Of a stretch of DNA of 64,000 bases, positions 1 to 14,642 are shown in pieces. The stretch is from assembly GCA_016874755.1 (NCBI GenBank), contig VGTH01000003.1, positions 62,001 through 126,000 on the forward strand, given 5' to 3'. Numbering within the stretch: the first letter of the stretch is position 1; every line of letters begins with the position of its first letter. The position numbers were made by a program, and so were the translations under genes. This DNA is from Deltaproteobacteria bacterium (lineage in GTDB: Bacteria; Desulfobacterota; Binatia; UBA9968). The notes beneath the pieces were generated by a model. It worked only from the letters and a program-made list of their open reading frames with translations, was not told the origin of the DNA and did not search any database.

Positions 1-158
1 AAGGCTTCACCACGGCGGGCACGCCGAAGCAGTGCATCGAAGAGCTCAAAGCCTACTTTGCCGCCGGCATCGAGCATATTACGCTGCGCATGACGTCGTG
101 GGATCAGACCGGCCAACTGAAACGTTTTCTCGAAGAAGTGGCGCCGGCATTCGTTTAA
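1..158 (+). CDS. LLM-class flavin-dependent oxidoreductase, C-terminal end only
   Basis: The reading frame is open from the window edge (codons begin at base 3) to TAA at 156-158, giving about 51 residues. The piece GTPKQCIEELKAYFAAGIEH followed by a helix ending RFLEEVAPAFV is the usual last beta-alpha unit of luciferase-like (bacterial luciferase fold) monooxygenases. It aligns by eye with the end of the full-length homologue at 7340-8323 (GTPAECRSQLESFVKGGLDL). The start and catalytic part lie outside the window, so substrate and cofactor (FMN or F420) cannot be judged. Confidence 0.7.
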   Translation, partial: GFTTAGTPKQCIEELKAYFAAGIEHITLRMTSWDQTGQLKRFLEEVAPAFV

Positions 159-178
159 GAAGGGGGAGTGGATAGAGT

Positions 179-246
179 GATGGAATACTGGAGTAATGGG
201 TTCAAGAATTTGTCCCAACACTCCAATGCTCCAGCACTCCATCATT
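179..246. repeat. Imperfect inverted repeat between genes
   Basis: The arm near 179-200 (gatggaatactggagtaatg) is matched in inverse orientation by the arm near 219-246 (cactccaatgctccagcact). It fills the gap before the glyoxalase-like gene. A half copy is recognisable at 10464-10500. No coding potential is seen. Confidence 0.55.
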
Positions 247-256
247 CTAAACATTC

Positions 257-1030
257 GTGATTCTCGGCATCGATCATCTGGTCATCGTCGTCAAAGACCT
301 CGCCCAAGCGACCAATGACTTCAAGCAGTTGGGCTTCACCGTGGTGCCGGGCGGCCAGCACCCAGTGGGCAGTCATAACTCGCTGATCTCGTTTGCCGAC
401 GGTTCCTATCTCGAGATCATCGCTTTTTATCGCGAAGCGGTCGACCATCGCTGGTGGGACCCGTTGGAAAAGGGCGAGCGCCTAGTCGACTATTGCCTAC
501 AGACCGACGACCTGCGCCGCGATACCACCACGCTGCGCCAAGCCGGCGTCGCCATCAACGACCCGGTGCCGTGGTCGCGCAAACGGCCCGATGGATTCGA
601 ATTGAAATGGCTCCTCTCCCTGGCAACCGGCAGTCATCGGGGGGTGGCGCCGTTTCTGATCGAAGACGTGACACCGCGCAACGAGCGCATTCCGCAAGAG
701 TTCAATCACAAAAATGGCGCCGCCGGCATCGGCACGCTGACCGTCGCCGTCGGCGAGTTGTCCAAGGTCGAGCAGTGGTATCATACGCTCTTAGGCTTCG
801 ACGGCGTGCCCTTCGACGACGACATGCTCGGCGCCAAAGGGGTACAGTTCACGGTCGGCACGCATCATCTTGAATTTGTCATGCCCGTGGACCCGGCAAG
901 TCCGTTGGTGCATTGGATGCGGGAGTATGGGCCGTCGCCCTACTCCGCCACGTTTCTAAGCGATGGCTCTCAAGCCGGCCTGTTCGATCTTGCGCTGACC
1001 CACGGCGCAAATCTGAGTTTTGGAACCTGA
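257..1030 (+). CDS. VOC/glyoxalase-like domain protein
   Basis: A 257-residue protein starting with GTG. It opens with the typical vicinal-oxygen-chelate strand MILGIDHLVIVVKDLAQATN followed by LGFTVVPGGQH and SYLEIIAF, which is the pattern of the Glyoxalase_3 type. His7 is in the place of the usual first metal ligand. A second half (residues about 155-250, with TLTVAVGELSKVEQWYHTLL and HHLEFVMP) is a second VOC module, so the chain has the two-module layout of extradiol dioxygenases and glyoxalases. There is no clear Shine-Dalgarno before the GTG, but the fold starts right there. The substrate is unknown. The gene is followed closely by a small exported protein and an aldolase on the same strand. 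Confidence 0.8.
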   Translation: MILGIDHLVIVVKDLAQATNDFKQLGFTVVPGGQHPVGSHNSLISFADGSYLEIIAFYREAVDHRWWDPLEKGERLVDYCLQTDDLRRDTTTLRQAGVAINDPVPWSRKRPDGFELKWLLSLATGSHRGVAPFLIEDVTPRNERIPQEFNHKNGAAGIGTLTVAVGELSKVEQWYHTLLGFDGVPFDDDMLGAKGVQFTVGTHHLEFVMPVDPASPLVHWMREYGPSPYSATFLSDGSQAGLFDLALTHGANLSFGT

Positions 1031-1058
1031 GTCGAAAGTTGTAGCTGCGGAGGAGAAG

Positions 1059-1370
1059 ATGAGACGATTTTTGTTGAAGTGCGGTTCTGGGCTGGTGGCA
1101 TTGCTGCTCGCGCTGGGATTGAGCGCCGGCGGCGGCATGGCTGTAACCAAGCGGCAGATGAAAGCGGAGATTCAATCCTTTCACGCATTCTTGCGCGATC
1201 ATCCGAGAGTGTCGACCGAGCTTCAGGCCAATCCCCGCCTGGCGGGCAATCGCAAATATCTCGACAAACACGAAGACTTGAAGAAATTTTTGAGGCGCCA
1301 TCCGGCGGTGCAACACGAAGTGATCAACCACCCGCGCAACGTCTTCGGCAGCAACAAGCGCCGCCGGTGA
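1059..1370 (+). CDS. Small exported hypothetical protein
   Basis: A 103-residue product. The ATG at 1059 is preferred because GGAGGAGAAG lies directly upstream; an earlier in-frame ATG at 1020 would overlap the previous gene. Residues 1-30 form a signal peptide (MRRFLLKCGSGLVALLLALG). The mature part carries repeated short units of the form DHPRVSTELQANP, KYLDKHEDLKKFLRRHPAVQ and NHPRNVF, which are amphipathic helices rich in His-Pro. Similar small secreted proteins with HP-x-V repeats occur widely in Proteobacteria without a known role. It sits 13 bases before the aldolase gene and may be co-transcribed with it. Confidence 0.65.
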   Translation: MRRFLLKCGSGLVALLLALGLSAGGGMAVTKRQMKAEIQSFHAFLRDHPRVSTELQANPRLAGNRKYLDKHEDLKKFLRRHPAVQHEVINHPRNVFGSNKRRR

Positions 1371-1383
1371 GATATCTTAAGCG

Positions 1384-2082
1384 ATGGCTATGACCGTCAA
1401 AGAAAAACTCGCGCTCGCCTGCCGTATCCTGGCCATGCAAGGCCACAACGACATGATCTACGGTCATGCCTCGGCGCTCACCGACAAGCCTAACGAATAT
1501 TGGATCAAGGGCTCCGGTATCGGCCTGGAAGAATGCACCGAAGAAGATCTCGTGCTGATCGACTACGACGGCAAGACCCTGGCCGGCAAGCGCAAGCGCC
1601 ACAACGAGTTTCCCATTCACAGCGAAATCTACCGCGCTAATCCGCAAGTTCGCTGCGTGATCCACACCCATCCGACCTATTCGACGTTGATCGCGTCGTC
1701 GGAAATGACGCTGTTGCCGATTACCAATTTAAGCTGTGCCTTCTACCCGCCGCCGATTCAAAAATACGAAGAGTCTTCGGACCTGATCGTCAGCGAAGAC
1801 CAAGGCAAAGCGGTGGCAAAACTGCTCGGCCAGCACAACATCGTTCTTTTGCGCAATCACGGCATCGTCATCGGTGGCCCGTCGGTGGAAGAGGCCTGCA
1901 TCTACGGCGTGTTGCTCGAACATAGCGCACAGACGCAAGTAAAAGCGGCGTCGATGGGCGGCTTTACCTGGGCGACAGACGCCGATGCCCTGCTCAAGCG
2001 CAAACGGGTTTTTCGCCCCGATGCGATGTTTAATTTGTGGGAATACTATTTGAGAATGCTGCGCAAGCACGAAGCGCGATAA
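1384..2082 (+). CDS. Class II aldolase/adducin family protein
   Basis: A 232-residue cytoplasmic enzyme of the FucA/AraD fold. The expected residues are all visible: the Glu of SEIY (Glu81) as proton donor, zinc ligands His94 and His96 in VIHTHPTYS, and His159 in LLRNHGIVIGG. Spacing agrees with L-fuculose-phosphate aldolase. Family members cleave sugar-phosphate aldols or decarboxylate related hydroxy acids. The substrate cannot be read from the sequence. It ends 26 bases before the convergent M20-like gene. Confidence 0.85.
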   Translation: MAMTVKEKLALACRILAMQGHNDMIYGHASALTDKPNEYWIKGSGIGLEECTEEDLVLIDYDGKTLAGKRKRHNEFPIHSEIYRANPQVRCVIHTHPTYSTLIASSEMTLLPITNLSCAFYPPPIQKYEESSDLIVSEDQGKAVAKLLGQHNIVLLRNHGIVIGGPSVEEACIYGVLLEHSAQTQVKAASMGGFTWATDADALLKRKRVFRPDAMFNLWEYYLRMLRKHEAR

Positions 2083-2108
2083 CTTCTGCGCTCTCTCGGC
2101 TTAGCCGT

Positions 2109-3296
2109 TTATCTGTGCAGCGCCATAAACGCGAACACCTTCGCCGCATCGAAGACTTTATTCATTGAGACCAGATCGTGGTCGGTGTGCTGAAAGCGGA
2201 TGTCGCGCGCGCCGTAGTTGATCGCCTGAATTCCCCTAAAATTAAATAGCCCGGTATCGTTGGCCGCGGTCGAAAAACTCATCTGCGGCTGTTGCCCGAG
2301 CATGGTCCGTATCCCCTGCTCTAGCGCCTGCACGACTTCGGCGTCTTTGCTGACTTCGCTGGGGTACATGAAATCGCGCGGCTGGACTTTAATCTCATAG
2401 GGCTCGATCTGGCCGATGGCATCGACCATTTGCTGAATCGCTTTTTTCGGATCGTCGCCGGGCAGCAGCCGGCGATCGAACATGATGCGGCACTCGCTTT
2501 GAATCGTGTGGGTCGCTTTCGGGAAGCTTTCGATGGCGTTGGTGGTGAGACTGACTTTGCCGAGATCGGCATGGGCCTTGGTTTCCGGAAAGGGCATCAA
2601 CGGTTTCAGCTTCTCTAACACTTTCATCGCCCCTTCGATGGCATTGACGCCTTCCCAGGGCCGGCTGCTATGTGCTTGTTTGCCTTTAACGACCACCAAC
2701 ACATCGACGCGCCCTTTGTTGCCCAGCTGAATCTCCGGCGGGCCGTCGATGATGCACCAGTCGGCTTCGACGTTGCCGTGATCGAGCACATAGGCGAGCG
2801 AATCGTGCTTGCCGGTCTCCCCCGCCGTGCTGACGACGAAATACAGATCGCTCGGCAGTTCGGCTTTGACTGAGCCGATCATTTTGATCGCCGCCATCAT
2901 CGCCGCGAGACTGCCTTTCTGCTCGCAGGTGCCGCGGCCCCAGACGCATTCGCCGTCCAACTTGTACGGCGCGCCATCGACAATCTCGCCGGAATAGGGA
3001 TTTTTCATCGTGCTCGGTGCCGCGTTCATGGCGTAGCCAACGAGCATCAAGCGGTCGCGCTTCTCGCGTCCTTTGAGATGCAAAACTAAATTGCCCATCG
3101 CGTCGACGGCCGGATGAAAACCCGACTGTTCCAACTCGGGCTTGACCAGATCGCGAATCAACGCCAACACCTGCGGCTCGGCTTCGAGCAGCGCAGTCTG
3201 CGGGCTGGCGAATTGCGCCAACCTGACGAGTATCCGCTTCACCTCATCGTAAGAAAGGTTCAGATCTATTAATTTCTTGACTGTTGCCGCTTCCAT
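2109..3296 (-). CDS. M20/ArgE-DapE-like hydrolase with atypical metal site
   Basis: A 395-residue protein with the architecture of M20 metallohydrolases: catalytic domain, a dimerisation domain (about residues 190-300, KGKQAHSSRPWEGVNAIEGA) and a return to the catalytic domain ending FQHTDHDLVSMNKVF. Family members hydrolyse amide bonds with two zincs. Several canonical ligands look altered. The HxD motif is replaced at residues 87-92 by GYAMNA. The bridging Asp before KG is Glu125 (CEQKG). The usual Glu-Glu pair is GETG (Glu160). It is therefore uncertain that it binds two metals. It lies 52 bases downstream of the permease gene on the same strand and may be the last gene of that run. Confidence 0.75.
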   Translation of the reverse strand: MEAATVKKLIDLNLSYDEVKRILVRLAQFASPQTALLEAEPQVLALIRDLVKPELEQSGFHPAVDAMGNLVLHLKGREKRDRLMLVGYAMNAAPSTMKNPYSGEIVDGAPYKLDGECVWGRGTCEQKGSLAAMMAAIKMIGSVKAELPSDLYFVVSTAGETGKHDSLAYVLDHGNVEADWCIIDGPPEIQLGNKGRVDVLVVVKGKQAHSSRPWEGVNAIEGAMKVLEKLKPLMPFPETKAHADLGKVSLTTNAIESFPKATHTIQSECRIMFDRRLLPGDDPKKAIQQMVDAIGQIEPYEIKVQPRDFMYPSEVSKDAEVVQALEQGIRTMLGQQPQMSFSTAANDTGLFNFRGIQAINYGARDIRFQHTDHDLVSMNKVFDAAKVFAFMALHR

Positions 3297-3348
3297 AACT
3301 CAAGCCTCGAAACTCTTCTGACTGTTGCCTGTTGCCCCTTGCCTGTCT

Positions 3349-5064
3349 CTAGTGTCCGCCAAATTCATCGACTTTGCCAATCTTGCGCGCTGCCAAAATC
3401 AGCGCAATGCAAACCAAGCTCACCAAAAGCGCCAGCGCGCACATCGGCCCCAGGTTGCCGTCGACGTAGAAGTGATAGAGCAAAGGTCCCAACGGCTCGG
3501 CGCCCGGCGAGTAGAGAAATATCGAGGTGCTAAACTCGCGCAGGTAGATGGTCGCCAGCAATATCCAACCGGCGATAAACCCCGGCCGCAGGAGCGGCAG
3601 CAAAATCCGCCGGAACGTAGTCATGAAGTTGGCCCCGCAGGCGTTTGAGGCTTCTTGCAAGTCGTTGTGAATCTGCACCGTCGTGCTCGTCATCGTGCGC
3701 AGGCCATAGGGAAGAAAGCGTGTGATGTAGCCGATCAACAGAATCCAGATGGTGCCGTAGATCGGCAGCGGCACATAGACGTAGGTCCAAAGCAGGCCGA
3801 TCGCCAGCGCTGTGCCGGGAAATGCCCATGGTATGAAGGTCAGCGCTTCGATCAGGCCGCGGGCGGCGGACCGAGACTTGGTCGTAATCCAAGCCGTCAA
3901 CGACGCCAGCAACATGCATAGGGTCGCTCCAACAATCGCCAGAAACAGGCTGTTCTGCAGTGCGCGATAGGTGCGGCCATCGCCCAGGTTGGCGCGATAA
4001 TGGTCCAGGGTCAAAAGCTCCAGTGTCTTGGCGCCCGGCACATGGAGATAGCTGACAAACGACGCGTAGATCAAAACCAAGAACGGCAAGACAACGATCA
4101 GGACCAGAATGATCCCCGCCACCGCGCTGGCCGCGTAGCGCCACGGGCCAAGATCGATGATACTCGGCCGATAACCCCGCCCCGTCACCGTGACATAGCG
4201 CTCCGAACGCTTGGTCATCTGCCGATAGATAAAGACAAACGCCATGGTGATGAGCAACAGCGACACACCGTAGGTGGCGGCGAGATTTTGGTTCGGCGGA
4301 AAAGCGCCGACCGCTTCGCGGTAGATCTTGGTGGTAAACACTTCGATGCGCGCCGGCAAGGCGATGATCGCCGGCGTGTCGAAGCTTTCGATGGCGCGCA
4401 CGAAGTTCAACGTCGCCGAGGCCAGCAAGGCCGGACGGACGATCGGCAGGGTAATCCGCCAAGCAACTTGAAAGTTGCTTGAGCCGGCGGTGCGCGCCGA
4501 CTCCTCCAGCGATGGGTCCATGGAGTAGAGCGAGGCAGAAACCATCAGAAACGCCAGCGGCGTGGTGATCAACGCCTCGACGTAAATCATGCCCCACATC
4601 GAATAGACGTCGAGCGGCGCTGCGCTCAGATTGAATACCTCCATCAAGAAACGGTTGATCAGCCCGGTGCGCGGACTCAGGAGAATCGTCCAAGACACCG
4701 CCAGCATCACCGGCGGGAAAATATTCGGCACGATCGCCGTCAGCTCGAAGAGTTTTCTAAACGGCGCATTGGTGCGGATCGAGATCCATGCCAAGGTCGC
4801 AGCCAGCGCGGTCGCCAACAGCGCCGAGCCGGCGGCAAAAATGAAAGAATTCCATAGGAGCCGATAGGTGAGCGGGTCCGTGTAGGCACTAATGTAGTGT
4901 GCCAGCGTAAACTCGCCGGCCACGCCGAGGGGCTTGCTGCGAAAGCTGCCGTAAAACAGCATCAGCGTGGGCGACAAACTCAAGTAGGCGATGATCACGC
5001 CGACGACGACCACCACCGCCAATAGCGGGTCGCGTTTAAACGCACCGAAAACCCGAGTCATCAC
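3349..5064 (-). CDS. Fe(3+)-type ABC transporter permease, two fused permease domains
   Basis: A 571-residue integral inner-membrane protein with about twelve hydrophobic helices and two binding-protein-dependent permease domains in one chain (about residues 60-270 and 330-550), as in FbpB, SfuB and ThiP. The EAA-like loops are seen as EESARTAGSSNFQVAWRITL and LQEASNACGANFMTTFRRI. It should form the channel of an importer with the binding proteins encoded directly upstream (5177-6199 and 6278-7285). No ATPase gene is found next to it or anywhere in the window. Known members import ferric iron, thiamine or other small solutes. The start (GTG or the adjoining ATG) is not certain. Confidence 0.88.
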   Translation of the reverse strand: MMTRVFGAFKRDPLLAVVVVVGVIIAYLSLSPTLMLFYGSFRSKPLGVAGEFTLAHYISAYTDPLTYRLLWNSFIFAAGSALLATALAATLAWISIRTNAPFRKLFELTAIVPNIFPPVMLAVSWTILLSPRTGLINRFLMEVFNLSAAPLDVYSMWGMIYVEALITTPLAFLMVSASLYSMDPSLEESARTAGSSNFQVAWRITLPIVRPALLASATLNFVRAIESFDTPAIIALPARIEVFTTKIYREAVGAFPPNQNLAATYGVSLLLITMAFVFIYRQMTKRSERYVTVTGRGYRPSIIDLGPWRYAASAVAGIILVLIVVLPFLVLIYASFVSYLHVPGAKTLELLTLDHYRANLGDGRTYRALQNSLFLAIVGATLCMLLASLTAWITTKSRSAARGLIEALTFIPWAFPGTALAIGLLWTYVYVPLPIYGTIWILLIGYITRFLPYGLRTMTSTTVQIHNDLQEASNACGANFMTTFRRILLPLLRPGFIAGWILLATIYLREFSTSIFLYSPGAEPLGPLLYHFYVDGNLGPMCALALLVSLVCIALILAARKIGKVDEFGGH

Positions 5065-5176
5065 GGCTCCGTGCTCCTGTTCTTCAGCAATGTTTCACCC
5101 GCCACAAATGCGCCGAGGGCTAGCCATTGGCCAGCCCTCTTTGCACGCGCGCCCTTGCTGGAGAAATCACAAACCG

Positions 5177-6199
5177 CTACTTGGCGAAGAAGATCTCGCG
5201 GAAGGTCACCGTCTGCAGCTTCTTAAACTCATCGGCCGTCGGGTTGTCCATCACAATGATATTGGGCTGGACTTTATCGGCATCCTTGATCGGCGGCAGC
5301 ACACCGGGGGCGAAAACGAATTCGCCGTCCTCAGCGATGTGCTTTTGCCCTTCCACCGAAGTCGCGTACTCAGCGTAGAGGCGCGCCGCATTGGGATGAT
5401 TGGCCTTGGCGCCAATGCTGATGTAGTTCGGATCGGCAAGATGCTTATCCATCAGCACATAGTGCACCGGTCCTTTGTACTGTTTAACGTACTTGACGTA
5501 GGTGATACCGAGATGGGCTTCGCCCTGAATGACCTTGTTGGTGACCGGCGCCAGCGATTCGACGAAGATCGGCTTTTGCTTGGCTAGGGCTTTGACGTAG
5601 TCGAGCCATTTGTCTTTCTTGAAAGTATCGAGATTCCAAAGAAACTGCGCCGTGGTGGTGTGGCGCGTCGGATCGGGCATGCAAATCTTGCCCATCCATT
5701 TGGGATGCAGCAGGTCGTCCCAGGTCTTTGGCAGATCCGCGGGCTTCACCAACTCGGTATTGTAGAGGATGCTGATCGGCAGCACGCGCCAGGGCGTGAT
5801 CAGGCCATCTTTCTCGCGCACGGCGGCAGGGAATTTCTCCGACGACGGCGGGATATTTTTAGCGAACAATCCTTCGGATTTCATGATCAATTGCACGCCG
5901 CGGTTGGCTTCGACCACGTCGAAACCTGGCCGGCCGGCGCGCCACTCGGCCAGCGCCCGCTCGGAAACCTTGGTGGAGTCGCCGCGCCAGTACTCGACAT
6001 CGATGCCGTACTTGGCCTTGAAGCCCTTGTGCAGATCGTCCATCGCCTGGGGCACCACCGAGCCATAGACGATGACTTTACCCTCTTTTTTTGCGGCATC
6101 GATGTTGACCGCCTGGGCGAACAACGGCGCCGCGGGCGCGATCAACATGGCCACGGCGAGCGCCAGGACTATCCAACCAACCCGCAATCTTTCTTTCAC
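5177..6199 (-). CDS. Periplasmic solute-binding protein, Fe(3+)/AfuA type
   Basis: A 340-residue protein. The GTG at 6199 is chosen because AAGGAGGAG lies seven bases upstream; a longer ATG start at 6256 would add residues before the signal peptide. Residues 1-28 are a signal peptide ending LFAQA. The mature start VNIDAAKKEGKVIVYGSVVP and the middle VLYNTEL-like and DLLHPKWMGKI segments are hallmarks of the extracellular binding proteins of the FbpA/AfuA/PotD group (SBP_bac_1/6). It is a close paralogue of the next upstream gene (6278-7285). Together with the permease at 3349-5064 it forms an importer lacking its ATPase. The ligand is unknown, and there is no obvious iron-binding Tyr pair to assign. 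Confidence 0.85.
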   Translation of the reverse strand: MKERLRVGWIVLALAVAMLIAPAAPLFAQAVNIDAAKKEGKVIVYGSVVPQAMDDLHKGFKAKYGIDVEYWRGDSTKVSERALAEWRAGRPGFDVVEANRGVQLIMKSEGLFAKNIPPSSEKFPAAVREKDGLITPWRVLPISILYNTELVKPADLPKTWDDLLHPKWMGKICMPDPTRHTTTAQFLWNLDTFKKDKWLDYVKALAKQKPIFVESLAPVTNKVIQGEAHLGITYVKYVKQYKGPVHYVLMDKHLADPNYISIGAKANHPNAARLYAEYATSVEGQKHIAEDGEFVFAPGVLPPIKDADKVQPNIIVMDNPTADEFKKLQTVTFREIFFAK

Positions 6200-6277
6200 A
6201 ATACTCCTCCTTAACGACCTGCTGGTAAAAAAGCTATAGAAAGCCCAACCGGTCAAGTCAAGATGCTTTTTACAATA

Positions 6278-7285
6278 CTATTTGGCGACAAAAAGCTGGC
6301 GGAAGTCGCTCTGCAACTTTTGCAACTGCTCTGCCGAAGGGTCTTCGAGCAAGCGAATGTTGGCCATGATGCGATCGGCGCCCGCGATATTGGGGTAGAC
6401 ACCGGGAGCCAGAACAAACTCGTGGGTCTCGGCAACCTTCTTCTGCCCTTCCGCCGAACAGAGATAGTCCATCAAGAAGCGCGCGGCATTGGGGTTGGCC
6501 GCCTTGGCACTGAGGGCACTATCGCTCGGGTCGGCTAAGATTTGGTTGATTGGCGCAAAGCCAATCGGCCCTTTGGTTTGCGGCACGTACTGTATGTAGC
6601 TGATCCCGAGTGCGGCTTCGCCGCGGACAACTTGATTCGGCACGCTCGAATAGGACTCAACGAGCAGCGGCTTCTGCTTTGCCAAAGCGCGCACAAAATC
6701 CATCCATTTGTCACCCTTGAATTGCGACATGTTCCACAAATAAGTCGCCGTGCTCGCGTGGCGCGACGGGTCGGGCATGGAAATCTTACCCTGCCATTTG
6801 GGATCCAACAGATCGTCGAGCGACTTCGGCACGTCGGCGGCTTTCACTAGCTCAGTGTTGTAAAGAATCCCCACCGGCGTAACGCGCCACGCCGTCAGCT
6901 GGCCGTCTTTATCTTTGAACTTGGCGGGAAACTTCTCCGCGCTCGCGGGAATAAACTTGGCATAAACTCCATCGGCCTTACCCAGTGACAACGGCCCACG
7001 CGCGCCGATGACCATGTCAAAGCCCGGCTTGCCAGCGCGCCACTCGCTGAGAACCCGATCAATGACCTTGGTGGCATCGCCGCGCCAGTATTCGATGTTG
7101 ACGCCGTACTTGGCTTCGAAGCCGGCCGCGATCAGCTTCATCACCTGCGGCACGATGGTGCCGTAGACAAAGACTTTGCCTTCTTTTTTGGCGGCGTCGA
7201 GGCTGACTTGCTGGGCTCCAACAGACTGAAGCGACAAAAGTGACACCGCAACCGCAACCCCAAAAGTCAGCTTATGATTCACCAT
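6278..7285 (-). CDS. Periplasmic solute-binding protein, Fe(3+)/AfuA type (paralogue)
   Basis: A 335-residue protein with signal peptide residues 1-24 (ending SVGAQQ). The ATG is preceded by GGGGGAG. The mature part (VSLDAAKKEGKVFVYGTIVP, IEYWRGDATKVIDRVLSEW, DLLDPKWQGKISMPDPSRH) matches the 5177-6199 protein along its whole length, so the two are a tandem duplication. It is the first of the three transport genes in the leftward run. A repeat half-copy (tttttgcgtgttttgcg) lies just upstream, between it and the flavin oxidoreductase gene. The ligand is unknown. Confidence 0.85.
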   Translation of the reverse strand: MVNHKLTFGVAVAVSLLSLQSVGAQQVSLDAAKKEGKVFVYGTIVPQVMKLIAAGFEAKYGVNIEYWRGDATKVIDRVLSEWRAGKPGFDMVIGARGPLSLGKADGVYAKFIPASAEKFPAKFKDKDGQLTAWRVTPVGILYNTELVKAADVPKSLDDLLDPKWQGKISMPDPSRHASTATYLWNMSQFKGDKWMDFVRALAKQKPLLVESYSSVPNQVVRGEAALGISYIQYVPQTKGPIGFAPINQILADPSDSALSAKAANPNAARFLMDYLCSAEGQKKVAETHEFVLAPGVYPNIAGADRIMANIRLLEDPSAEQLQKLQSDFRQLFVAK

Positions 7286-7339
7286 AGACTCCCCCTATAA
7301 ATTTTTGCGTGTTTTGCGTTTTTTGCGGCCATTCTTCAC

Positions 7340-8323
7340 TTATGACACCAGTTCCCGCGCCATGCGCACCACTTGCTTGCGCGCCTCCTGCGTCCCCGTC
7401 GGCAGTAGCACCGGCAGATCGAGGCCGCCTTTGACGAAGGACTCCAACTGCGACCGACATTCCGCCGGCGTGCCGGCGATCGCATGGGCAAAGACAATCT
7501 CGTCGGTGATGAACTTTTTTGCCGCCTCCCAGTCGCGCTTCCCCACCGCCGCCGCCAGCGCCGGCTGGTCGATCTGGTTGCCGCCGAGGCGAATATTTTG
7601 CAAATGATGCACGTTGCGAAAAATATAGGCGAGAAACATCTTGCTCGCCTCGATGGCTTCGCGCTGGTTGTCGCTCACCGACGCCGTGACGAAGCCGGCG
7701 ACGTCGACATCTTCCAACGACTTGCCGGCTTTCTTCGCGCCCTTGTCAATTTCACCCGCGCAATTCTTGATATAACCCGGAGCACAGCCGGCCGAGAGCA
7801 GCACGCCGTCGCCGATCTCGCCGCCCAGACGCAGCATCAAGGGCCGCACCGCGGTCAGATACATCTTGATCGGCGCCGCCGGAAAGAAGCCCATCTTGGC
7901 GCCGTTGATCTTGAACGTCTCGCCCTGAAAGTTGACGGTTTCGCCCTTTAAATAGCGGCGCAGAATATCGACATACTCGCGCATGGTCTTCAACGGATGG
8001 GGCGACTCCATGCCGGCTTCCTTGAGGGCCGCGGCGTTGCCAGTGCCGGGGCTGCCAATGACGCGACCGGGGGCGAACTCGTCCATGGTCGCAATCGACA
8101 TCGCGGTGATAATCGGATTACGCGAGTAAGGACTAGCCGGGGCGGCGGCGACTTTGATCTTCTTGGTCGATGCCAAGAGCGCCATGGCCGTGGTCAGCGA
8201 GTCGCGGAAGCACAGGTGATCCGACATCCAGATCGACTCCATGCCGACGTCGTCGCCGAGCTTGGCGAGCTCGATCATTTCTTGAATCGAATAGAACCCG
8301 TCAAAACACAGACCCACTCGCAT
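7340..8323 (-). CDS. LLM-class flavin-dependent oxidoreductase
   Basis: A 327-residue TIM-barrel protein of the bacterial luciferase family: MRVGLCFDGFYSIQEMIELA at the start, then SIWMSDHLCFRDSL, the phosphate-binding loop region FAPGRVIGSPGTGNA and MREYVDILRRYLKGETVNFQG, and the usual C-terminal helix pair. Known relatives are F420- or FMN-dependent oxidoreductases and monooxygenases. The sequence alone does not decide which. Its ribosome-binding site GGGAGGG lies inside the end of the preceding opine-dehydrogenase-like gene, with only two bases between the genes, so the two are translationally linked and probably act on the same substrate line. Confidence 0.85.
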   Translation of the reverse strand: MRVGLCFDGFYSIQEMIELAKLGDDVGMESIWMSDHLCFRDSLTTAMALLASTKKIKVAAAPASPYSRNPIITAMSIATMDEFAPGRVIGSPGTGNAAALKEAGMESPHPLKTMREYVDILRRYLKGETVNFQGETFKINGAKMGFFPAAPIKMYLTAVRPLMLRLGGEIGDGVLLSAGCAPGYIKNCAGEIDKGAKKAGKSLEDVDVAGFVTASVSDNQREAIEASKMFLAYIFRNVHHLQNIRLGGNQIDQPALAAAVGKRDWEAAKKFITDEIVFAHAIAGTPAECRSQLESFVKGGLDLPVLLPTGTQEARKQVVRMARELVS

Positions 8324-8325
8324 GA

Positions 8326-9432
8326 TTAGAAACCCTCCCGCATGACCTTGCCCAAATCGCGCGGCCGCACGGTCGAGAGACCCATTTTCTTGAGCGTCAA
8401 CCCCTCGCTGCGATAGTCGATGCCGTGCATCACCGACGCCAGCGTAATCAAAGCGTCGATCAACGGCGTTTTGACGCCGAGCGACCGGCCGATCTCAGCC
8501 ATGGGCACCAATCCGTAGCCGACGTCTTCCTTGATGTAGCGATGGTCCAGCGACGGCGGCGCTTTGATCGTGCGGTTGGGCTCGCTCTCGTGAATCGCCC
8601 GGTAGACCGAACCGCTGGCGCGCGCCTCTTCGGTGGTCAGCCCAGACTGAAAGAAGATATCGACGAAGCGCACGGGGTCGAGCACCAGCCGTTTGACGAT
8701 GTCCAAACGCTCTTGGTCGATTTTCTCAATCCAGGCGGCGACTGCCGGCGTGATTCCGTCACGGTAGTAGAGAAAATCGCCCTTGGTTTTCTCAATCCAG
8801 CCGGCGTTACCGAGCATGCCGGCGGGATGCATGATCGCATTGATATTAGCGAAGCCCGTCTCCAGGACGTCCTGAGCCCGGACAATGTTCGGATAAATTT
8901 CCTGGATTTCCGGCATGAGCGAGAACCCATCCGAGCCCGGAAACGCAGCACAGCGCAAATGGGTCGTGCGCCGGTAAATCTCCACCCGCGCCGGCCGCGG
9001 CATGCGGCAAATGTAGGTCAGCGTCACGGTCTCGCAAAGTTTAACCTTAGCTCGCAGGCCGCTGTGACGCAGGGTGTTGGCAAAATGCAGCGAGCCGCCG
9101 GTGTGGCCCGGGTTGAGCATGATCCGCTGGCCATCTTGCAGATAGCGCGCTAACCCGTTGGCGAGATACTCGTGCGCCACTGCCGGCGCACAAACAATGA
9201 TCAGATCGACGCCGTCAATCACCGGCGGCAGATGCGGGCTGACGAAAAACGGCGAAGCGAATTTTTCTTCGCCGTTCTCCACCAACGTGATGCCGTCTTT
9301 CTTGCGGATTGGGTTGAGAGTTTCTTCCGTGCGCGAAAACAACCGCACTTCATAGCCGCGCAGCGTCAAATCGGCGGCAGCAGCGCAACCGCCGTTGCCC
9401 GCGCCCAATACTGCAATTTTCTTGATCGCCAT
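8326..9432 (-). CDS. NAD/NADP octopine/nopaline dehydrogenase family protein
   Basis: A 368-residue cytoplasmic protein. The Rossmann nucleotide site is clear at residues 5-20 (IAVLGAGNGGCAAAADLTLR), followed by GYEVRLFSRTEE. The central part NPGHTGGSLHFANTL and the C-terminal helical domain (EDVGYGLVPMAEIGRSLGVK) are those of opine dehydrogenases and related 2-keto or imino acid reductases. The His of HPAGMLGN is in the usual catalytic position of octopine dehydrogenase-type enzymes. The family makes or breaks N-(carboxyalkyl) amino acids. Here it is transcribed with a flavin oxidoreductase and downstream of a binding protein, which hints at an amino-acid-derived substrate (inference). Confidence 0.8.
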   Translation of the reverse strand: MAIKKIAVLGAGNGGCAAAADLTLRGYEVRLFSRTEETLNPIRKKDGITLVENGEEKFASPFFVSPHLPPVIDGVDLIIVCAPAVAHEYLANGLARYLQDGQRIMLNPGHTGGSLHFANTLRHSGLRAKVKLCETVTLTYICRMPRPARVEIYRRTTHLRCAAFPGSDGFSLMPEIQEIYPNIVRAQDVLETGFANINAIMHPAGMLGNAGWIEKTKGDFLYYRDGITPAVAAWIEKIDQERLDIVKRLVLDPVRFVDIFFQSGLTTEEARASGSVYRAIHESEPNRTIKAPPSLDHRYIKEDVGYGLVPMAEIGRSLGVKTPLIDALITLASVMHGIDYRSEGLTLKKMGLSTVRPRDLGKVMREGF

Positions 9433-9458
9433 GGATGAAATCGATTAACAGCAAGCGG

Positions 9459-10463
9459 TTATGGTTTTAGCCGTCCTTCGCCGCGCAGCTCCTGCTGCGC
9501 CAACTTCAAGATACGGTCATTGAGGACGCGGTCCAAGGTGAAGCTTTTGTCGACCAGCCCGGTGCGGATATCTTCGTCAAGCATTTGTTGCATACCTGGC
9601 ACCGCCAGCGACAGATCACCCTGCAGGCCGGGCGAGTAGAGGTCCCAAGCCGCGCTGACGATATCGGGATCGCCCTGCAGCCCAGCTTCGTAGCCGGCCT
9701 TGATCGCTTCGCGCTTGTTGAACTTGGCGATCTGCATGCCCTGAATATACGCCTTGAGCATGCGCTTACTGGTCTCGGGATATTTCTCCAGCATCTCGTT
9801 GCGCGTCACTAGAATATTTTGCGGAATGCCGAGCGAATCGTTCATGTTGCTGATCACCGAATAGCCCGAGCGAATCAGCCGCACCGCATCTTCGGTGGGA
9901 AACGGCGCGGCAGCGATGATGCCCTTCTCGATCGCCGCGGCCCGCAGCACGGTGCCGCCAATTGCGCGCAGAATCACTTCTTTGTCGGGGGTTATGTTGT
10001 GCTTTCTCAAAAAAGCCTTGACGGCAAACTCGGAATAGCTGCCGGCGCCGGTGATGCCGATCGGCTTGCCCTTGAGATCCTCCACCGTGCGCGTCTGCTT
10101 GTTGCCAAGCATGATGTAATTGGTCGTGCCGGAGATGCAGCCGATGATCGACAAATCGAGGCCGCGCGCCTTGGCGCGAAAGATCGCCTGTGCACCGCCG
10201 ATGCTGGCGAAATCGACTTCACCGGCGACCAACGCTGAGATCGCCGCCGGCCCGCCACGAATCAAAATCGGCTCGACGGTCAACCCCTGCTGCTTGAAAA
10301 ACCCTCGCGCCATGGCGACCCGAAAAGGAATTTCACTATTCCAAGCCAGGCTTACGAAGACCATCCGAAAGGCCTTCTTCTCCTGCGCCAACGAATGCGC
10401 TGGCGCCACCAGCAACACCATCAAGCCTATCGTCAGTTGAATCGCTGTTTGAATCCCCATCAC
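9459..10463 (-). CDS. NMT1/SsuA-type ABC substrate-binding protein
   Basis: A 334-residue exported protein with a signal peptide ending AHSLAQ (about residue 27). The mature protein shows the class: RVAMARGFFKQQGLTVEPI, then ISALVAGEVDFASIGGAQA, then VEDLKGKPIGITGAGSYSEF and a C-terminal lobe with TSKRMLKAYIQGMQIAKFNK. Such proteins bind taurine, sulfonates, nitrate, pyrimidines and many aromatic or organic acids. It heads the leftward run of opine dehydrogenase, flavin oxidoreductase and Fe-type transporter genes. No permease or ATPase of the SsuBC type accompanies it. Confidence 0.83.
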   Translation of the reverse strand: MMGIQTAIQLTIGLMVLLVAPAHSLAQEKKAFRMVFVSLAWNSEIPFRVAMARGFFKQQGLTVEPILIRGGPAAISALVAGEVDFASIGGAQAIFRAKARGLDLSIIGCISGTTNYIMLGNKQTRTVEDLKGKPIGITGAGSYSEFAVKAFLRKHNITPDKEVILRAIGGTVLRAAAIEKGIIAAAPFPTEDAVRLIRSGYSVISNMNDSLGIPQNILVTRNEMLEKYPETSKRMLKAYIQGMQIAKFNKREAIKAGYEAGLQGDPDIVSAAWDLYSPGLQGDLSLAVPGMQQMLDEDIRTGLVDKSFTLDRVLNDRILKLAQQELRGEGRLKP

Positions 10464-10545
10464 TCCATTACTACGCTACTCCAATACCGTAATCTCCCAC
10501 TCGCGCCTCAGACCTTATCTGTCTTGCCTATTGCCCAATGCCTGT

Positions 10546-11007
10546 TCATCTCTTCGCATACACCGTCGTCTTGCCATCCTTGTCAAACGTCATCACGTTG
10601 TAAGGCTCCGGCTTACCGGCCTCCATCCCCGGCGAGCCGATCGGCATACCCGGCACAGCTAGCCCCAACACCGCCGGCTTCTCCTTGAGCAGTTTGTCGA
10701 TGAGATCGGCCGGGACATGCCCCTCGATGATGTAGCCGTCAATCAGCCCCGTATGACACGACTGCAGTTTTTCCGGGATACGCTGCTTTTCCTTGAAATT
10801 GAGCAGGTCCCGCGCCGACAAAAACTTTCGATCGACCTGGAAGCCGTTGTTACGCAGGTGGACCACCCACGCCGAACAACATCCTCAGCCAGGGTCCTGA
10901 TAGACGGTAATGGCCTTGGCGGCGGCCTTGGCCTGGGCCAGCAGACTCACCGGTAGCAACAGAAAAAACACCAACGCGGCGTATCGCCCAATTGTTCCGA
11001 TCTTCAC
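10546..11007 (-). CDS. DUF411 metal-binding protein, probable selenoprotein (TGA = Sec41)
   Basis: Read through an in-frame TGA at 10885-10887, this is a complete 153-residue DUF411 protein. The GTG start at 11007 follows TAAGGAG. Residues 1-32 are a signal peptide (YAALVFFLLLPVSLLAQA). The next residues read AITVYQDPG, then TGA, then GCCSAWVVHLRNNGFQV. Family members have Cys at exactly this place (the C-G-C-C motif after VYK-x-P). The rest of the family is intact: SCHTGLIDGYIIEGHVPADL, LGLAVPGMPIGSPGME and a YNVMTFDKDGKT ending. A strong hairpin lies just after the TGA (see 10846-10880). DUF411 proteins are periplasmic and are linked to copper and other metals. The alternative is a nonsense mutation or sequencing error; the hairpin, intact downstream part and second TGA gene at 25285 argue against it. 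Confidence 0.8.
10846..10880 (-). promoter_or_regulatory. Predicted bacterial SECIS hairpin in the DUF411 gene
   Basis: In the mRNA, nucleotides 5-39 after the UGA fold into one long hairpin. The outer stem is GUUGUU with AACAAC (six perfect pairs). A two-base bulge (CG) follows, then an inner stem of eight or nine pairs including three G-U wobbles. The apical loop contains GGUC. The loop G-U falls about 22 bases after the UGA, close to its place in the E. coli fdhF SECIS, whose loop also reads GGUC. This is the form and distance expected for SelB binding. Folding was done by eye; no energy was calculated. Confidence 0.75.
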
Positions 11008-11100
11008 GGTGCTCCTTAGACGATGCAAATCTACAGATTCATTGACAGAAAAGCGAGCACTGCGATATCGATCATAGAGTTCGCCCGAGGAGGGACCGCC
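11008..11100. promoter_or_regulatory. Divergent intergenic region between DUF411 and amidohydrolase genes
   Basis: The 93 bases between the divergent starts at 11007 and 11101 must hold both promoters. They also contain the ribosome-binding sites TAAGGAG (minus) and CGAGGAGGGA (plus). No clear -35/-10 pair or operator palindrome could be picked out. Confidence 0.4.
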
Positions 11101-12234
11101 ATGACAAAGAATGGGATGAAGGTGCTCGACAGCGATATGCACTTGATGGAGCCGGTGGACCTGTGGGACCGCTACATTGACGACAAATTCAAGGCCATTG
11201 CGCCGCGCGGGCTCTCCAGCGAAAACGTCCGCGATCTGCGCATGGCCCATCCCGACGGCCGCCCGTGGGGCGTGTATCGATCCAACGGCGTGCGCAGCGG
11301 CGCCCCCAACCGTGGCCGCAACTTCAATCGCAACCAAGGCATCTATCGCGATCACTCGGAGCGTGGTTGGACGGCCGAAGTGCAGCTCGAAGCGATGGAC
11401 GTCGAAGGCATCGACGTTGCCGTGCTCTATCCCACGCGCGGGTTAAACGTCCTTAGCGAACCCCAGATGGACGCCGATTTCGCCGCCGCTCTGGCGCGCG
11501 CCTATAACAACTGGCTCTACGACTTTTGCGAAAAGGATCCGCTGCGCCTGCTCGGCGCCGGCATGATCTCCACGTTTGACATCGACGACGCCGTCAAAGA
11601 AGCGCACCGCTGCGTAACAGAGCTGGGTTTTCGCGCCGTCTTCATGCGCTCGAATATCTTGAACGAACGCAACTGGCACGATCCCTATTACGAGCCACTC
11701 TGGTCCGCCCTCGAAGAGTTGGCGGTGCCCGTGGGCTTTCATGAGTCGTCGTCTTCCGCCGGGCGTCAGACCGGCGACTGGTTCGAGCCCAACTTCATGC
11801 TGCGCCGCGCCGTCGCCCAGCCCATGGAGCAGATGTTAGGGTTGGTCGCCATTTGCGCCGGCGGTGTCTTGGCGCGCCATCCCAATTTGCGCGTCGCTTT
11901 TCTCGAAGCCAACTGCACTTGGCTGCCGTGGCTCCTCTGGCGCCTCGACGAAGGTTGGGAGCGCGAGGGCGATATCTGGGCGCCGGAAATGACGATGAAA
12001 CCGAGCGATTACTTCAAGCGCCAGGTGTTCGTATCCGTGGAACCCGATGAAGCCGGCGTAAAGTATGTTATCGATTACATCGGCACCGAGCGTCTGGTTT
12101 TCTCGACGGATTACCCGCATGGCGATTCCAAATATCCCCATGCAGTGGAGAATTTCTTGGAGCTCAAAATCGGCGACCTCGACAAACGGAAAATTCTCTG
12201 GGACAACTGTGCTGAGTTTTACAAAGTCACTTAG
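11101..12234 (+). CDS. Amidohydrolase (amidohydrolase_2 family)
   Basis: A 377-residue TIM-barrel metal-dependent hydrolase. The ATG at 11101 has GAGGAGGG upstream; an earlier ATG at 11023 has none. The metal-binding start is VLDSDMHLMEPVDLW. GFHESSS (a His in the barrel), LEANCTWLPWLLW and FSTDYPHGDSKYPH (the catalytic Asp) follow in order. This family includes decarboxylases such as ACMSD and gamma-resorcylate decarboxylase as well as hydrolases. The DxDMHxMEP subgroup is typical of uncharacterised members in soil bacteria. A close paralogue is encoded at 20731-21852. The gene is divergent from the DUF411 gene and upstream of a Gfo/Idh/MocA oxidoreductase. Confidence 0.85.
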   Translation: MTKNGMKVLDSDMHLMEPVDLWDRYIDDKFKAIAPRGLSSENVRDLRMAHPDGRPWGVYRSNGVRSGAPNRGRNFNRNQGIYRDHSERGWTAEVQLEAMDVEGIDVAVLYPTRGLNVLSEPQMDADFAAALARAYNNWLYDFCEKDPLRLLGAGMISTFDIDDAVKEAHRCVTELGFRAVFMRSNILNERNWHDPYYEPLWSALEELAVPVGFHESSSSAGRQTGDWFEPNFMLRRAVAQPMEQMLGLVAICAGGVLARHPNLRVAFLEANCTWLPWLLWRLDEGWEREGDIWAPEMTMKPSDYFKRQVFVSVEPDEAGVKYVIDYIGTERLVFSTDYPHGDSKYPHAVENFLELKIGDLDKRKILWDNCAEFYKVT

Positions 12235-12257
12235 TTATAGTCTTCGTCACGCGATCC

Positions 12258-12362
12258 GACGCCCCCCCCCTTTTGACAAAGGGGGTCAAGGGGGGATTTT
12301 CCTAATGCGCTGCGTTCAAATCCCCATCTATCCCGCTTTTCCAAAGGGGGAAGTCGGAATTT
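12258..12362. repeat. C/G-tract inverted repeat between genes
   Basis: The arms (cccccttttgacaaaggggg near 12265-12285, then aaggggggatttt, and ttttccaaagggggaa near 12340-12355) are the widespread 'C-tract/aaag/G-tract' intergenic repeat. A second copy lies at 31330-31410. It can form hairpins and may stop transcription leaving the amidohydrolase gene. Confidence 0.55.
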
Positions 12363-12425
12363 GGCTTGCGCGTAAACCGCTCCCCTGCTAACAAGAGAAA
12401 CCTTCCAACCGAAAGAAGCAATCCC

Positions 12426-13631
12426 ATGGCAACTCCCAATCGAAGACTGAGACTCGGCATCGTCGGCCTCGGCGTCGGCGCCTCAGAAATTTTGCCGGCG
12501 ATGGAACAGATTCCGGAATTTGAGCTGGTTGCGGCGGCGGACGTCAATCCGCGCGTGATGGCGACATTCCAACAACGGTATGGCGCCAAGACCTACGACA
12601 GCATCGACAAGCTCTGCGCCGACCCCGACGTCGAGGCGGTCTGGGTGTCGACGCCCAATCGCTTTCATGCGCCGCACACGATCATCGCCGCCAACGCCGG
12701 CAAACATGTCGTCGTCGAGAAACCGATGGCGATCTCACTGCAAGAGGCCGAGCAGATGGTCGAGGCATCGATCAAAAACAAGATCAAACTGCTGTGCGGT
12801 CATACCCAGAGCTTTGGGCCGCATATTCGCACGATGCGTAGAATCATCCGCTCCGGCGAGCTGGGCCGCCTCTGCGCGCTGCACGTTTGGGCTTACACGG
12901 ATTGGATGCTGCGGCCGCGCACAGCGGACGAATTGGACATCAATCAAGGCGGCGGCGTGCCCTACCGCCAGGGGCCGCACCAGATCGATACCCTGCGGCT
13001 CCTCGGCGGCGGTCTGGTGCGCAGCGTGCGCGGCGCCACCGGAGGCTGGTTCAAAGGCCGGCCGATCCCCGGCTACTATTCGGGATTCATGGAATTCGAA
13101 GACGGCACACCGGCAACTTTGATGCACAACGGCTACGGCTATTTTCTCGCGTCGGAATTGGTTCCCTGGGGTGGCCAGAATAGCCGCTACAGCGAAGCCG
13201 AGCGCGCCAAGATTCGCAAATCTTTGCTCGACGGCACGCGCAACGAAAACGCCGACAAAGACGCCATGCGCATCGGCGGCGCCAACGAGGGTGAAATTCG
13301 CGATCGCAGCAAAGCCAAGCCGTGGCAGCCCAACGACCTCGGCATTCTCGTTGCCACCTGCGAAAAAGGCGACATCCGTCAATCGCAATACGGCTTGTTC
13401 GTCCACAGCGACGAAGGCACCAAAGACGTGCCGCTGGTCGGCGGCGGCGGTCCGTCGCGCCGCGCCGAGTTGATGGAGCTCTACAACGCCGTGGTGCTCG
13501 ACAAACCGATCCGCCACACCGGCCCCTGGGGCATGGCGACCTTGGAAGTTTGTTTGGCGCTGATGCAATCGTCGAAGGAAAGAAAAGAAATTTACTTGAA
13601 GCATCAAGTGCCGGCGCCCGAGCAAGATTAA
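12426..13631 (+). CDS. Gfo/Idh/MocA family oxidoreductase
   Basis: A 401-residue NAD(P)-dependent enzyme. The Rossmann motif GIVGLGVGAS is at residues 11-20, and the family EKP motif is at residues 98-100 (VVVEKPMAIS). The C-terminal domain carries GGGVPYRQGPHQIDTLRLLG, whose His is the usual catalytic His region. The family oxidises or reduces sugars, inositols and related compounds, and some members act on aromatic or amide substrates. The ATG at 12426 begins the recognised fold; its ribosome-binding site (gaaagaag) is weak. It lies between two amidohydrolase genes on the same strand, so it probably works in the same pathway. Confidence 0.85.
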   Translation: MATPNRRLRLGIVGLGVGASEILPAMEQIPEFELVAAADVNPRVMATFQQRYGAKTYDSIDKLCADPDVEAVWVSTPNRFHAPHTIIAANAGKHVVVEKPMAISLQEAEQMVEASIKNKIKLLCGHTQSFGPHIRTMRRIIRSGELGRLCALHVWAYTDWMLRPRTADELDINQGGGVPYRQGPHQIDTLRLLGGGLVRSVRGATGGWFKGRPIPGYYSGFMEFEDGTPATLMHNGYGYFLASELVPWGGQNSRYSEAERAKIRKSLLDGTRNENADKDAMRIGGANEGEIRDRSKAKPWQPNDLGILVATCEKGDIRQSQYGLFVHSDEGTKDVPLVGGGGPSRRAELMELYNAVVLDKPIRHTGPWGMATLEVCLALMQSSKERKEIYLKHQVPAPEQD

Positions 13632-13661
13632 GAGTCGGAGATATCATCTCAAGGAGGCAAA

Positions 13662-14642
13662 ATGTACAACGGACAAAAAACAGTCGACGTGCACGGTCAC
13701 ATGACCACCCCGGCGGTGTTCCGCCAATTCTTAGCCGAATGCGTCTCGCAGAATACGCCCAATCGCAAGCTCGACATGAGCGATGAGCAGCTCGAAGCAG
13801 CGCAGCAGCGTCATCTGAAATTCATGGACGACCGCGGCATCGACGTGCAGTTGATCGGCCCGCGCCCGATCGCCATGTGGCACTGGATGCGGCCGTTCTT
13901 GCAAGAGTTCTGGGCCAGGACGACCAACGACGTGATCGCGCGCATCGTCAAACTCCACCCCGACCGCTTCCGCGGCATGGCGCAGCTGCCGCAGTGCCGC
14001 GACAAAGACACGCGCAACTGCTTGCCCGAGTTCGAACGCTGCATCAAGGAACTTAACTTTGTCGGGGCCTACTTAAATCCCGACCCGGCGGGCGACAAGC
14101 AGACGCCCGGCGTGCATGAAGAATATTGGCATCCGCTCTATGATAAAGCCGTGCAGTTGGACGTGCCGCTGATGGTCCATCCGTCAATCACCTACGACCG
14201 ACGGCTGGAGGTGATTCCTGCCAACTATCAGATGAACAATTATCTGGAAGAGTTCGTCGCGATGAATCTCTACATGCACAGCAAGGTTTTTCAGACGTTC
14301 CCGAAACTGAAGATCGTGATCTGCCACTGCGGCGGCGGGCTCCATCGCTTCATCCCCAACGACCACCACGTCGGTCAGGGCGATTCCAGTAATAATTTAT
14401 ATTACGACTCCTGCGTCTACGACGAAAATTATCTAGAGGCGGCGATCAAACAGCGCGGCGTCGACCAGGTGCTGTTCGGCACCGAGTCCCCCGGCTCCGG
14501 CGGCGCCGTGCGCAAGGATACCGGCAAACCGTCTGACGACATGATCCCGGTGATCGACAAACTGGCGTTCTTGAGCGCGGAAGATAAGATGAAAATCTTC
14601 CAGAAAAACCCGCTGAAGGTTTTTACAAAAGTGAAGATATAA
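13662..14642 (+). CDS. ACMSD-like amidohydrolase/decarboxylase family protein
   Basis: A 326-residue TIM-barrel protein with AAGGAGG before the ATG. The metal site starts with VDVHGHMTTP (His11, His13) and continues with His173 (LMVHPS) and His222 (ICHCGGGLHRF). This is the layout of 2-amino-3-carboxymuconate-6-semialdehyde decarboxylase and gamma-resorcylate decarboxylase. The last canonical ligand, normally Asp in a GTDxP motif, appears as Glu275 in FGTESPGSG. The C-terminal DKLAFLSAEDKMKIFQKNPL is the usual family ending. It likely acts on a carboxylated (possibly aromatic) substrate. A bicupin ring-cleavage-like gene lies convergent just downstream. Confidence 0.82.
   Translation: MYNGQKTVDVHGHMTTPAVFRQFLAECVSQNTPNRKLDMSDEQLEAAQQRHLKFMDDRGIDVQLIGPRPIAMWHWMRPFLQEFWARTTNDVIARIVKLHPDRFRGMAQLPQCRDKDTRNCLPEFERCIKELNFVGAYLNPDPAGDKQTPGVHEEYWHPLYDKAVQLDVPLMVHPSITYDRRLEVIPANYQMNNYLEEFVAMNLYMHSKVFQTFPKLKIVICHCGGGLHRFIPNDHHVGQGDSSNNLYYDSCVYDENYLEAAIKQRGVDQVLFGTESPGSGGAVRKDTGKPSDDMIPVIDKLAFLSAEDKMKIFQKNPLKVFTKVKI

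Follow-up and report, generated by a model that had tools for sequence, protein, structure and literature searches.

The window, by which we mean the whole stretch of 64,000 nucleotides that was analysed, carries on its minus strand a gene that seems to be broken by a stop codon but is very probably intact. A plain ORF finder divides it into two pieces, one of them a 106-aa ORF (10546..10866) opened by a GTG just past an in-frame TGA, and genes of this kind are therefore easily annotated as shortened DUF411 proteins. Translation of the TGA as selenocysteine (Sec, U) yields one protein of the DUF411/CopG family, with a single in-frame TGA in the context QDPG-U-GCCSAW. The earlier note had placed the gene at 10546-11007 without naming a strand; the coordinates are correct, and the gene runs over 153 codons on the minus strand. 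Its features are as follows.

10546..11007, minus strand: putative Sec-DUF411/CopG gene, 153 codons plus stop (translation with TGA as U, Pfam, match to 6wis)
11007 and 10548-10546, minus strand: GTG start and true stop TGA, respectively (translation)
11012..11017, minus strand: AAGGAG, a likely ribosome-binding site just 5' of the GTG start (read from the letters themselves)
10933..11007, minus strand: signal peptide-like N-terminus of about 25 aa, for export (basic start and hydrophobic core, read by eye without a predictor)
10885..10887, minus strand: in-frame TGA, the predicted Sec, residue 41, at the first Cys of CGCC (translation, 6wis alignment, relatives)
10876..10881, minus strand: Cys43-Cys44 of the U-G-C-C motif (invariant in 42 aligned Sec proteins)
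10750..10761, minus strand: SCHT motif with Cys84 and His85 (both invariant in the 42)
10624..10650, minus strand: GMPIGSPGM motif with Met121 and Met128 (both invariant in the 42)
10842..10884, minus strand: predicted bacterial SECIS directly 3' of the Sec codon (window fold and group statistics)
10852..10872, minus strand: apical SECIS hairpin of 9 bp, loop GUC closed by G-C, 21 nt after the UGA, -10.9 kcal/mol (hairpin-rule search)

The family assignment was computed in several ways. Pfam DUF411 (PF04214) matches residues 81-128 (E 6.1e-27, 93.5 bits against a cut-off of 27), and a phmmer comparison of the window protein, with Cys written for Sec, to CopG of Pseudomonas aeruginosa (6wis; E=1.2e-29) sets the TGA on the first Cys of CGCC, which bears out the position proposed in the earlier note; the CxCC motif of the family is present as U-G-C-C. 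A profile search against solved structures recovered CopG at E 1.1e-42, and CopG (6wis/6wje) was the sole sequence relative found among them. No NCBIfam model matched the window protein at E<=1, and the gene is the only DUF411 match in the 5.56 Mb genome. An AlphaFold2 model with Cys in place of Sec has a mean pLDDT of 90.8 and a helix starting from residue 43. A Foldseek search with this model placed five CopG chains on top (TMt 0.88-0.91; best 6wis_A, TMt 0.91, rmsd 1.5), followed by weak glutaredoxin and thioredoxin matches, and the predicted model qualifies as a thioredoxin-like CopG fold. The gene had also been described as intact on both sides of the TGA, and this holds, with the signal peptide-like N-terminus before it, by our by-eye reading, and the full family core after it, by Pfam and the 6wis match.

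Another reading is that the locus is a pseudogene or holds a sequencing error, with the TGA either truly ending translation or being artefactual, and the two pieces reported by the ORF finder, with a GTG after the TGA that starts a 106-aa ORF, speak for it. In the window's order the gene occurs in 14 of 35 genomes, all within one family of 25 genomes, and the site codon at the first Cys of U-G-C-C is TGA in 14/14 of these carriers, which share 51-70% identity with the window; no Cys form was found among the 14. In one of them (L025, G013) the matched stretch carries additional stops ahead of the domain, possibly through faulty assembly, and two matches in another (L031 and L033, G033) look like one gene split by a frame change. 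A search of the phylum recovered the gene in the source genome only (1/395 genomes), a result that says little on its spread because only one other of the 21 genomes listed belonged to the carrier family. When the window was compared with two relatives, pN was 0.18-0.19 and pS 0.72-0.81 after the TGA, which shows purifying selection on the stretch after the TGA. The recurrence of the TGA in independent assemblies excludes sequencing error for practical purposes.

The same comparisons bear on the possibility that translation restarts at the GTG after the UGA and gives a truncated, cytoplasmic DUF411 fragment. The ORF at 10546..10866 with its GTG start does exist, but the fragment would lack the signal peptide, the first strand and the whole C-G-C-C motif, and conservation extends to the 30 nt before the TGA (pN 0.04 against the two relatives). 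In 42 Sec proteins chosen for alignment, G42, C43, C44, C84, H85, M121 and M128 are invariant beside Sec, and G42, C43 and C44 lie upstream of the restart. We regard reinitiation as highly improbable. Two weak second matches in the order, L032 and L034, were considered as DUF411 and rejected, as they belong to a different gene. This is a small glutaredoxin-like U-G-P-C (TGA) gene in order genomes G023 and G024 (L032 in the frame from about 422, L034 on the minus strand), likely a known Grx-type selenoprotein.

The TGA form extends far beyond this order. A TGA-specific pattern (with W..H), run across 84,980 species with a single genome for each, returned at least 119 stretches; among the matches listed, 83 of the 119 are DUF411 genes that carry TGA at the site in question and 36 are not, the latter including one (L077) that is cut by a contig end although its start resembles DUF411. 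Six of the 83 repeat, under other records, genes that the order search had already supplied, leaving 77 distinct records among the matches listed, and these fall in at least 13 named phyla: Pseudomonadota (25), Acidobacteriota (19), Gemmatimonadota (8), Rokuibacteriota (5), Chloroflexota (5), Thermodesulfobacteriota (4), Myxococcota (2), Campylobacterota (2) and five phyla with one each, with two records unranked. By the titles seen, nearly all 77 are MAGs, and single phylum placements may be binning errors. Strain records among the matches listed are those of Helicobacter brantae MIT 04-9366, H. cholecystus ATCC 700242 and Parendozoicomonas callyspongiae 2012CJ34-2. One stretch that passed a loose filter (L072) was judged a chance match and is not included in the counts of 91, 98 and 162, and the near-copies L038 and L103 were retained. 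DUF411 irrespective of Sec is common, with 3450 matching plasmid records.

Sec and Cys forms also occur side by side in related genomes. DUF411 was found in 32 of 119 genomes drawn from the family of H. brantae (5 containing an internal TGA, 27 uninterrupted by a stop), in 104 of 300 from Burkholderiales (6 with TGA) and in 34 of 347 from Acidobacteria (12 with TGA). Among the best matches, the site codon was TGA in 5, TGC in 2 and TGT in 23 of the 30 Helicobacter-family loci, and TGA in 15, TGC in 40 and TGT in 5 of the 60 Burkholderiales and Acidobacteria loci, with TAA or TAG at the site in none of these 90 survey loci. Random stop codons in homologues would have refuted the claim of a selenoprotein, and none were seen at this site in the 90. 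With the same TGA in every order carrier and at 83 of the 119 pattern loci among the matches listed, no TAA or TAG in the surveys and selection acting 3' of the TGA, we consider a pseudogene or sequencing error practically ruled out. In a quickly built tree, 94 Sec and 68 Cys proteins are separated by nine Sec/Cys changes, at least three of them forced by well-supported branches, so the switch has probably been repeated; the tree rests on few columns, 66 of its 159 inner branches are open, and the direction of change was not inferred. In this tree, the DUF411 of a record titled Acidimicrobiia (Actinomycetota; L145) groups among Acidobacteria, perhaps through a binning error or transfer.

The earlier note had asked for selA, selB, selC and selD in the same genome, and SelA, SelB, SelD and tRNA-Sec were all found. 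The tRNA-Sec scores 75.9 bits against a gathering score of 47, with an ARAGORN anticodon of tca, and SelB scores 411 bits against a cut-off of 242. The selA and selD genes adjoin selB in a selA-selB-selD cluster; both were identified from their translations and their place beside selB, not by family search. The selD gene (locus L010:380-1470, minus strand) has an in-frame TGA in SVKAAGUAAKLGP, which we take to be the usual Sec site of SelD. The SelD of the source genome is thus itself a probable selenoprotein. Together, the Sec machinery and the Sec-type selD give this genome an independent reason to read UGA as Sec.

Could the UGA instead be read as another amino acid, or passed by plain readthrough without selenium? 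Readthrough is possible in principle and nothing specific speaks for either, while a normal TGA terminates the gene itself, the full Sec machinery and a Sec-type selD are present in the genome, relatives without the TGA have Cys at the site, and SelB accompanies the TGA form across phyla. Of 50 pattern-scan genomes tested, SelB exceeded the cut-off in 28/30 with the Sec form and in 5/20 chance-match controls; it was not found over the cut-off in two Sec-form genomes (L067 and L104, the latter a record titled chromosome), which remains unexplained. We therefore see very little room for recoding without selenium. SelB is non-discriminating within the order, since it exceeds the cut-off in 17/21 genomes without the gene as well as in 12/14 carriers (none in G023, a partial match of 203 bits in G033), and likewise in the Helicobacter set, where it does so in 30/32 genomes, Cys forms included.

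The claim that a hairpin follows the TGA was right, but its description as a GGUC loop starting four bases on was inexact, as the apical loop is GUC and lies 21 nt after the TGA. The 61 nt around the window TGA fold at -26.2 kcal/mol (z -2.74; 0/200 shuffles as low), and the 45 nt after it give z -1.78 and p 0.055 against synonymous-codon shuffles. At that p value the window hairpin taken alone is suggestive, and it gains weight because relatives hold the same TGA. It meets the rules for a bacterial SECIS given in PMC13188914 (loop of 3-9 nt, G in the first two positions, 16-37 nt from the UGA, MFE <= -7.5). An Rfam scan of the window gave no match; Rfam is not known to include a family for the bacterial SECIS.

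Minimum free energy has little power when used by itself, so we added a rule-based hairpin test with Cys controls. At -5 kcal/mol or better, a rule hairpin was present in 66/98 Sec genes against 6/68 Cys homologues, and at -7.5 in 42/98 against 2/68; synonymous-codon shuffles passed at rates of 17% and 7%, respectively. Since the Cys set contains AT-rich Campylobacterota genes, the test at -5 kcal/mol was split by taxonomic group, giving 15/22 Sec against 2/25 Cys in Burkholderiales/Betaproteobacteria, 15/22 against 4/20 in Acidobacteria and 0/5 against 0/23 in Campylobacterota. In the window's order, 12/14 Sec genes passed. The spacing was 16-21 nt in 64/66 passing Sec hairpins and in 0/6 passing Cys ones. 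No rule hairpin at -5 kcal/mol or better was found in 32/98 Sec genes, including all five from Campylobacterota, which have weak 5-bp GGUC hairpins.

In terms of folding energy, the 45-nt stretch that follows the TGA had a mean z of -1.16 against synonymous shuffles over 91 genes, with 38% at p<=0.05, and the next stretch downstream gave -0.08 and 8% in the same test. In the small sample from the survey of Acidobacteria, folding was no better in Sec genes (n=3, z -0.04) than in Cys genes (n=20, z -0.77). Pairing in a shared helix stood at 68.2% of cells, compared to 64.6% with codons permuted within the same amino acid (0/500 as high), a figure that common ancestry may raise; the covariation counts are inflated by relatedness. 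The Helicobacter hairpin GCUUU-GGUC-AAAGC appears in a relative (L158) as GCUCU-GGUC-AGAGC, a two-sided, compensatory change. The exact Helicobacter hairpin is retained in a Cys (CSCC) DUF411 gene of another Helicobacter relative (L159), where it is a probable fossil SECIS of a Sec past.

For the function of the product, the nearest guide is CopG. According to the parts of PMC7558416 and PMC8456105 available to us, CopG-like proteins are periplasmic, serve in anaerobic copper resistance and hold a four-copper cluster through CxCC and two Met, and Cu(I) oxidation and copper transfer have been proposed for them. The window protein shares with CopG of P. aeruginosa (PF04214; 6wis/6wje) its family, predicted fold and CGCC/SCHT/GSPGM motifs, with 44% identity over the structural alignment; it differs in that CopG has Cys where the window protein has Sec, and in that copper genes are not adjacent in the window. 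The invariance of C43, C44, C84, H85, M121 and M128 beside Sec puts Sec in the copper-binding motif, and we infer that Met121 and Met128 correspond to the copper-binding Met of CopG. CutG of Rhodobacter capsulatus is likewise a CopG homologue, in a copper operon, but the accessible part of PMC8456105 describes it with Cys, and Cys and Met mutants there showed CutG to be dispensable for CutO maturation.

Gene neighbourhoods lend some support elsewhere and none at the window. We picked 141 neighbours of Sec forms by longest-ORF rules and scanned 131 of them and then the ten longest, with no control set of Cys forms. Among the 131, CusF was the commonest Pfam family (8), mostly at betaproteobacterial loci, alongside Copper-bind/cupredoxin (3) and multicopper oxidase (Cu-oxidase; 2); none of the ten longest belonged to a copper family. 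The 131 also include AIRS domains in two neighbours and methyltransferase domains in four; an AIRS domain is also present in SelD. At the window, no copper gene was found among the seven neighbours scanned, and positions 6278-14642 hold NMT1 and SBP_bac_6 substrate-binding proteins, two amidohydrolases, a luciferase-like monooxygenase and an octopine-dehydrogenase-like gene. The link to copper made in the earlier note thus has backing from the CopG family and from neighbours at other loci, and nothing from the window gene itself.

A selenoprotein with a role other than copper deserves tentative consideration, acting in the periplasm either as a general thiol/selenol oxidoreductase or by binding some other soft metal (Hg, As, Ag). 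It would suit the thioredoxin-like fold, the weak glutaredoxin and thioredoxin matches and the absence of a copper gene beside the window gene. However, CopG is by far the closest protein in both fold and sequence, CusF, Copper-bind and Cu-oxidase families lie near Sec forms elsewhere, and all 42 aligned proteins keep the motif Cys and both Met. A copper role for the Sec-DUF411 protein is therefore somewhat favoured, and we call it probable, with copper binding and redox activity both inferred.

The selenoprotein gene itself appears real in all but experimental proof. Its Sec insertion is inferred, without a protein or selenium measurement, and we nevertheless have little doubt that the window gene encodes a selenoprotein. 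In the mechanism we propose, SelB and Sec-tRNA-Sec would insert Sec at residue 41 under the direction of the hairpin that follows the UGA, and the product would be exported and adopt the thioredoxin-like CopG fold. Its selenol, together with Cys43, Cys44 and probably the conserved Met, would replace the CxCC copper-binding site, so that the protein may work in the periplasm as an oxidoreductase or chaperone for copper (Cu(I)/Cu(II)), and we infer that a copper-selenolate centre could offer faster or more oxidation-resistant chemistry. We hold this explanation as a whole, an intact, exported DUF411/CopG selenoprotein with Sec at residue 41 and a periplasmic copper oxidoreductase or chaperone role, to be very likely.

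Among known selenoproteins, the window protein resembles those with a thioredoxin-like fold (glutaredoxin UxxC, DsbA-like, thioredoxin-like Sec.1/Sec.2) in having Sec near the start of the first helix and a SECIS-like hairpin after the UGA, but those belong to other families, and its U-G-C-C motif is not in the 119-family selenoprotein table (Table 1) of PMC13188914, a review of May 2026. CopZ-like (2Fe-2S), SO_0444 Cu/Zn efflux transporter and MerT-like selenoproteins similarly have Sec beside metal-handling chemistry, but the same table gives them under domain IDs other than PF04214. Neither DUF411 nor PF04214 appears in that table, and the string UGCC is absent from the review. Term searches of PMC12013277, PMC9312934, PMC2398784, PMC1088965, PMC5330540 and PMC5029168, and of the Epsilonproteobacteria survey PMC4607533, each limited to the text available, did not find DUF411. 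No paper in the literature searched joins DUF411 with selenoprotein, as far as its accessible text goes; COG3019 and selenocysteine co-occur in one, once each. The suggestion that this would be a new type of selenoprotein stands within these limits, and the Sec-DUF411 family is likely, though not certainly, new to print, with RefSeq Sec annotations and two relevant papers outside the scope of the search. We give roughly even chances to the broader proposal of a widespread, unreported Sec family in which Sec replaces a Cys ligand of a multinuclear copper cluster, forming a copper-selenolate centre, with repeated Sec/Cys switching.

A Sec-DUF411 form in many bacterial phyla appears to have been overlooked. 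If this is true, it would add a selenoprotein family found in at least 13 named phyla to the published list of 119 families, and it would place selenium directly in bacterial copper handling. As natural Sec/Cys pairs exist in Helicobacter and its relatives, in Burkholderiales and in Acidobacteria, the question of why selenium is used at a copper site becomes testable.
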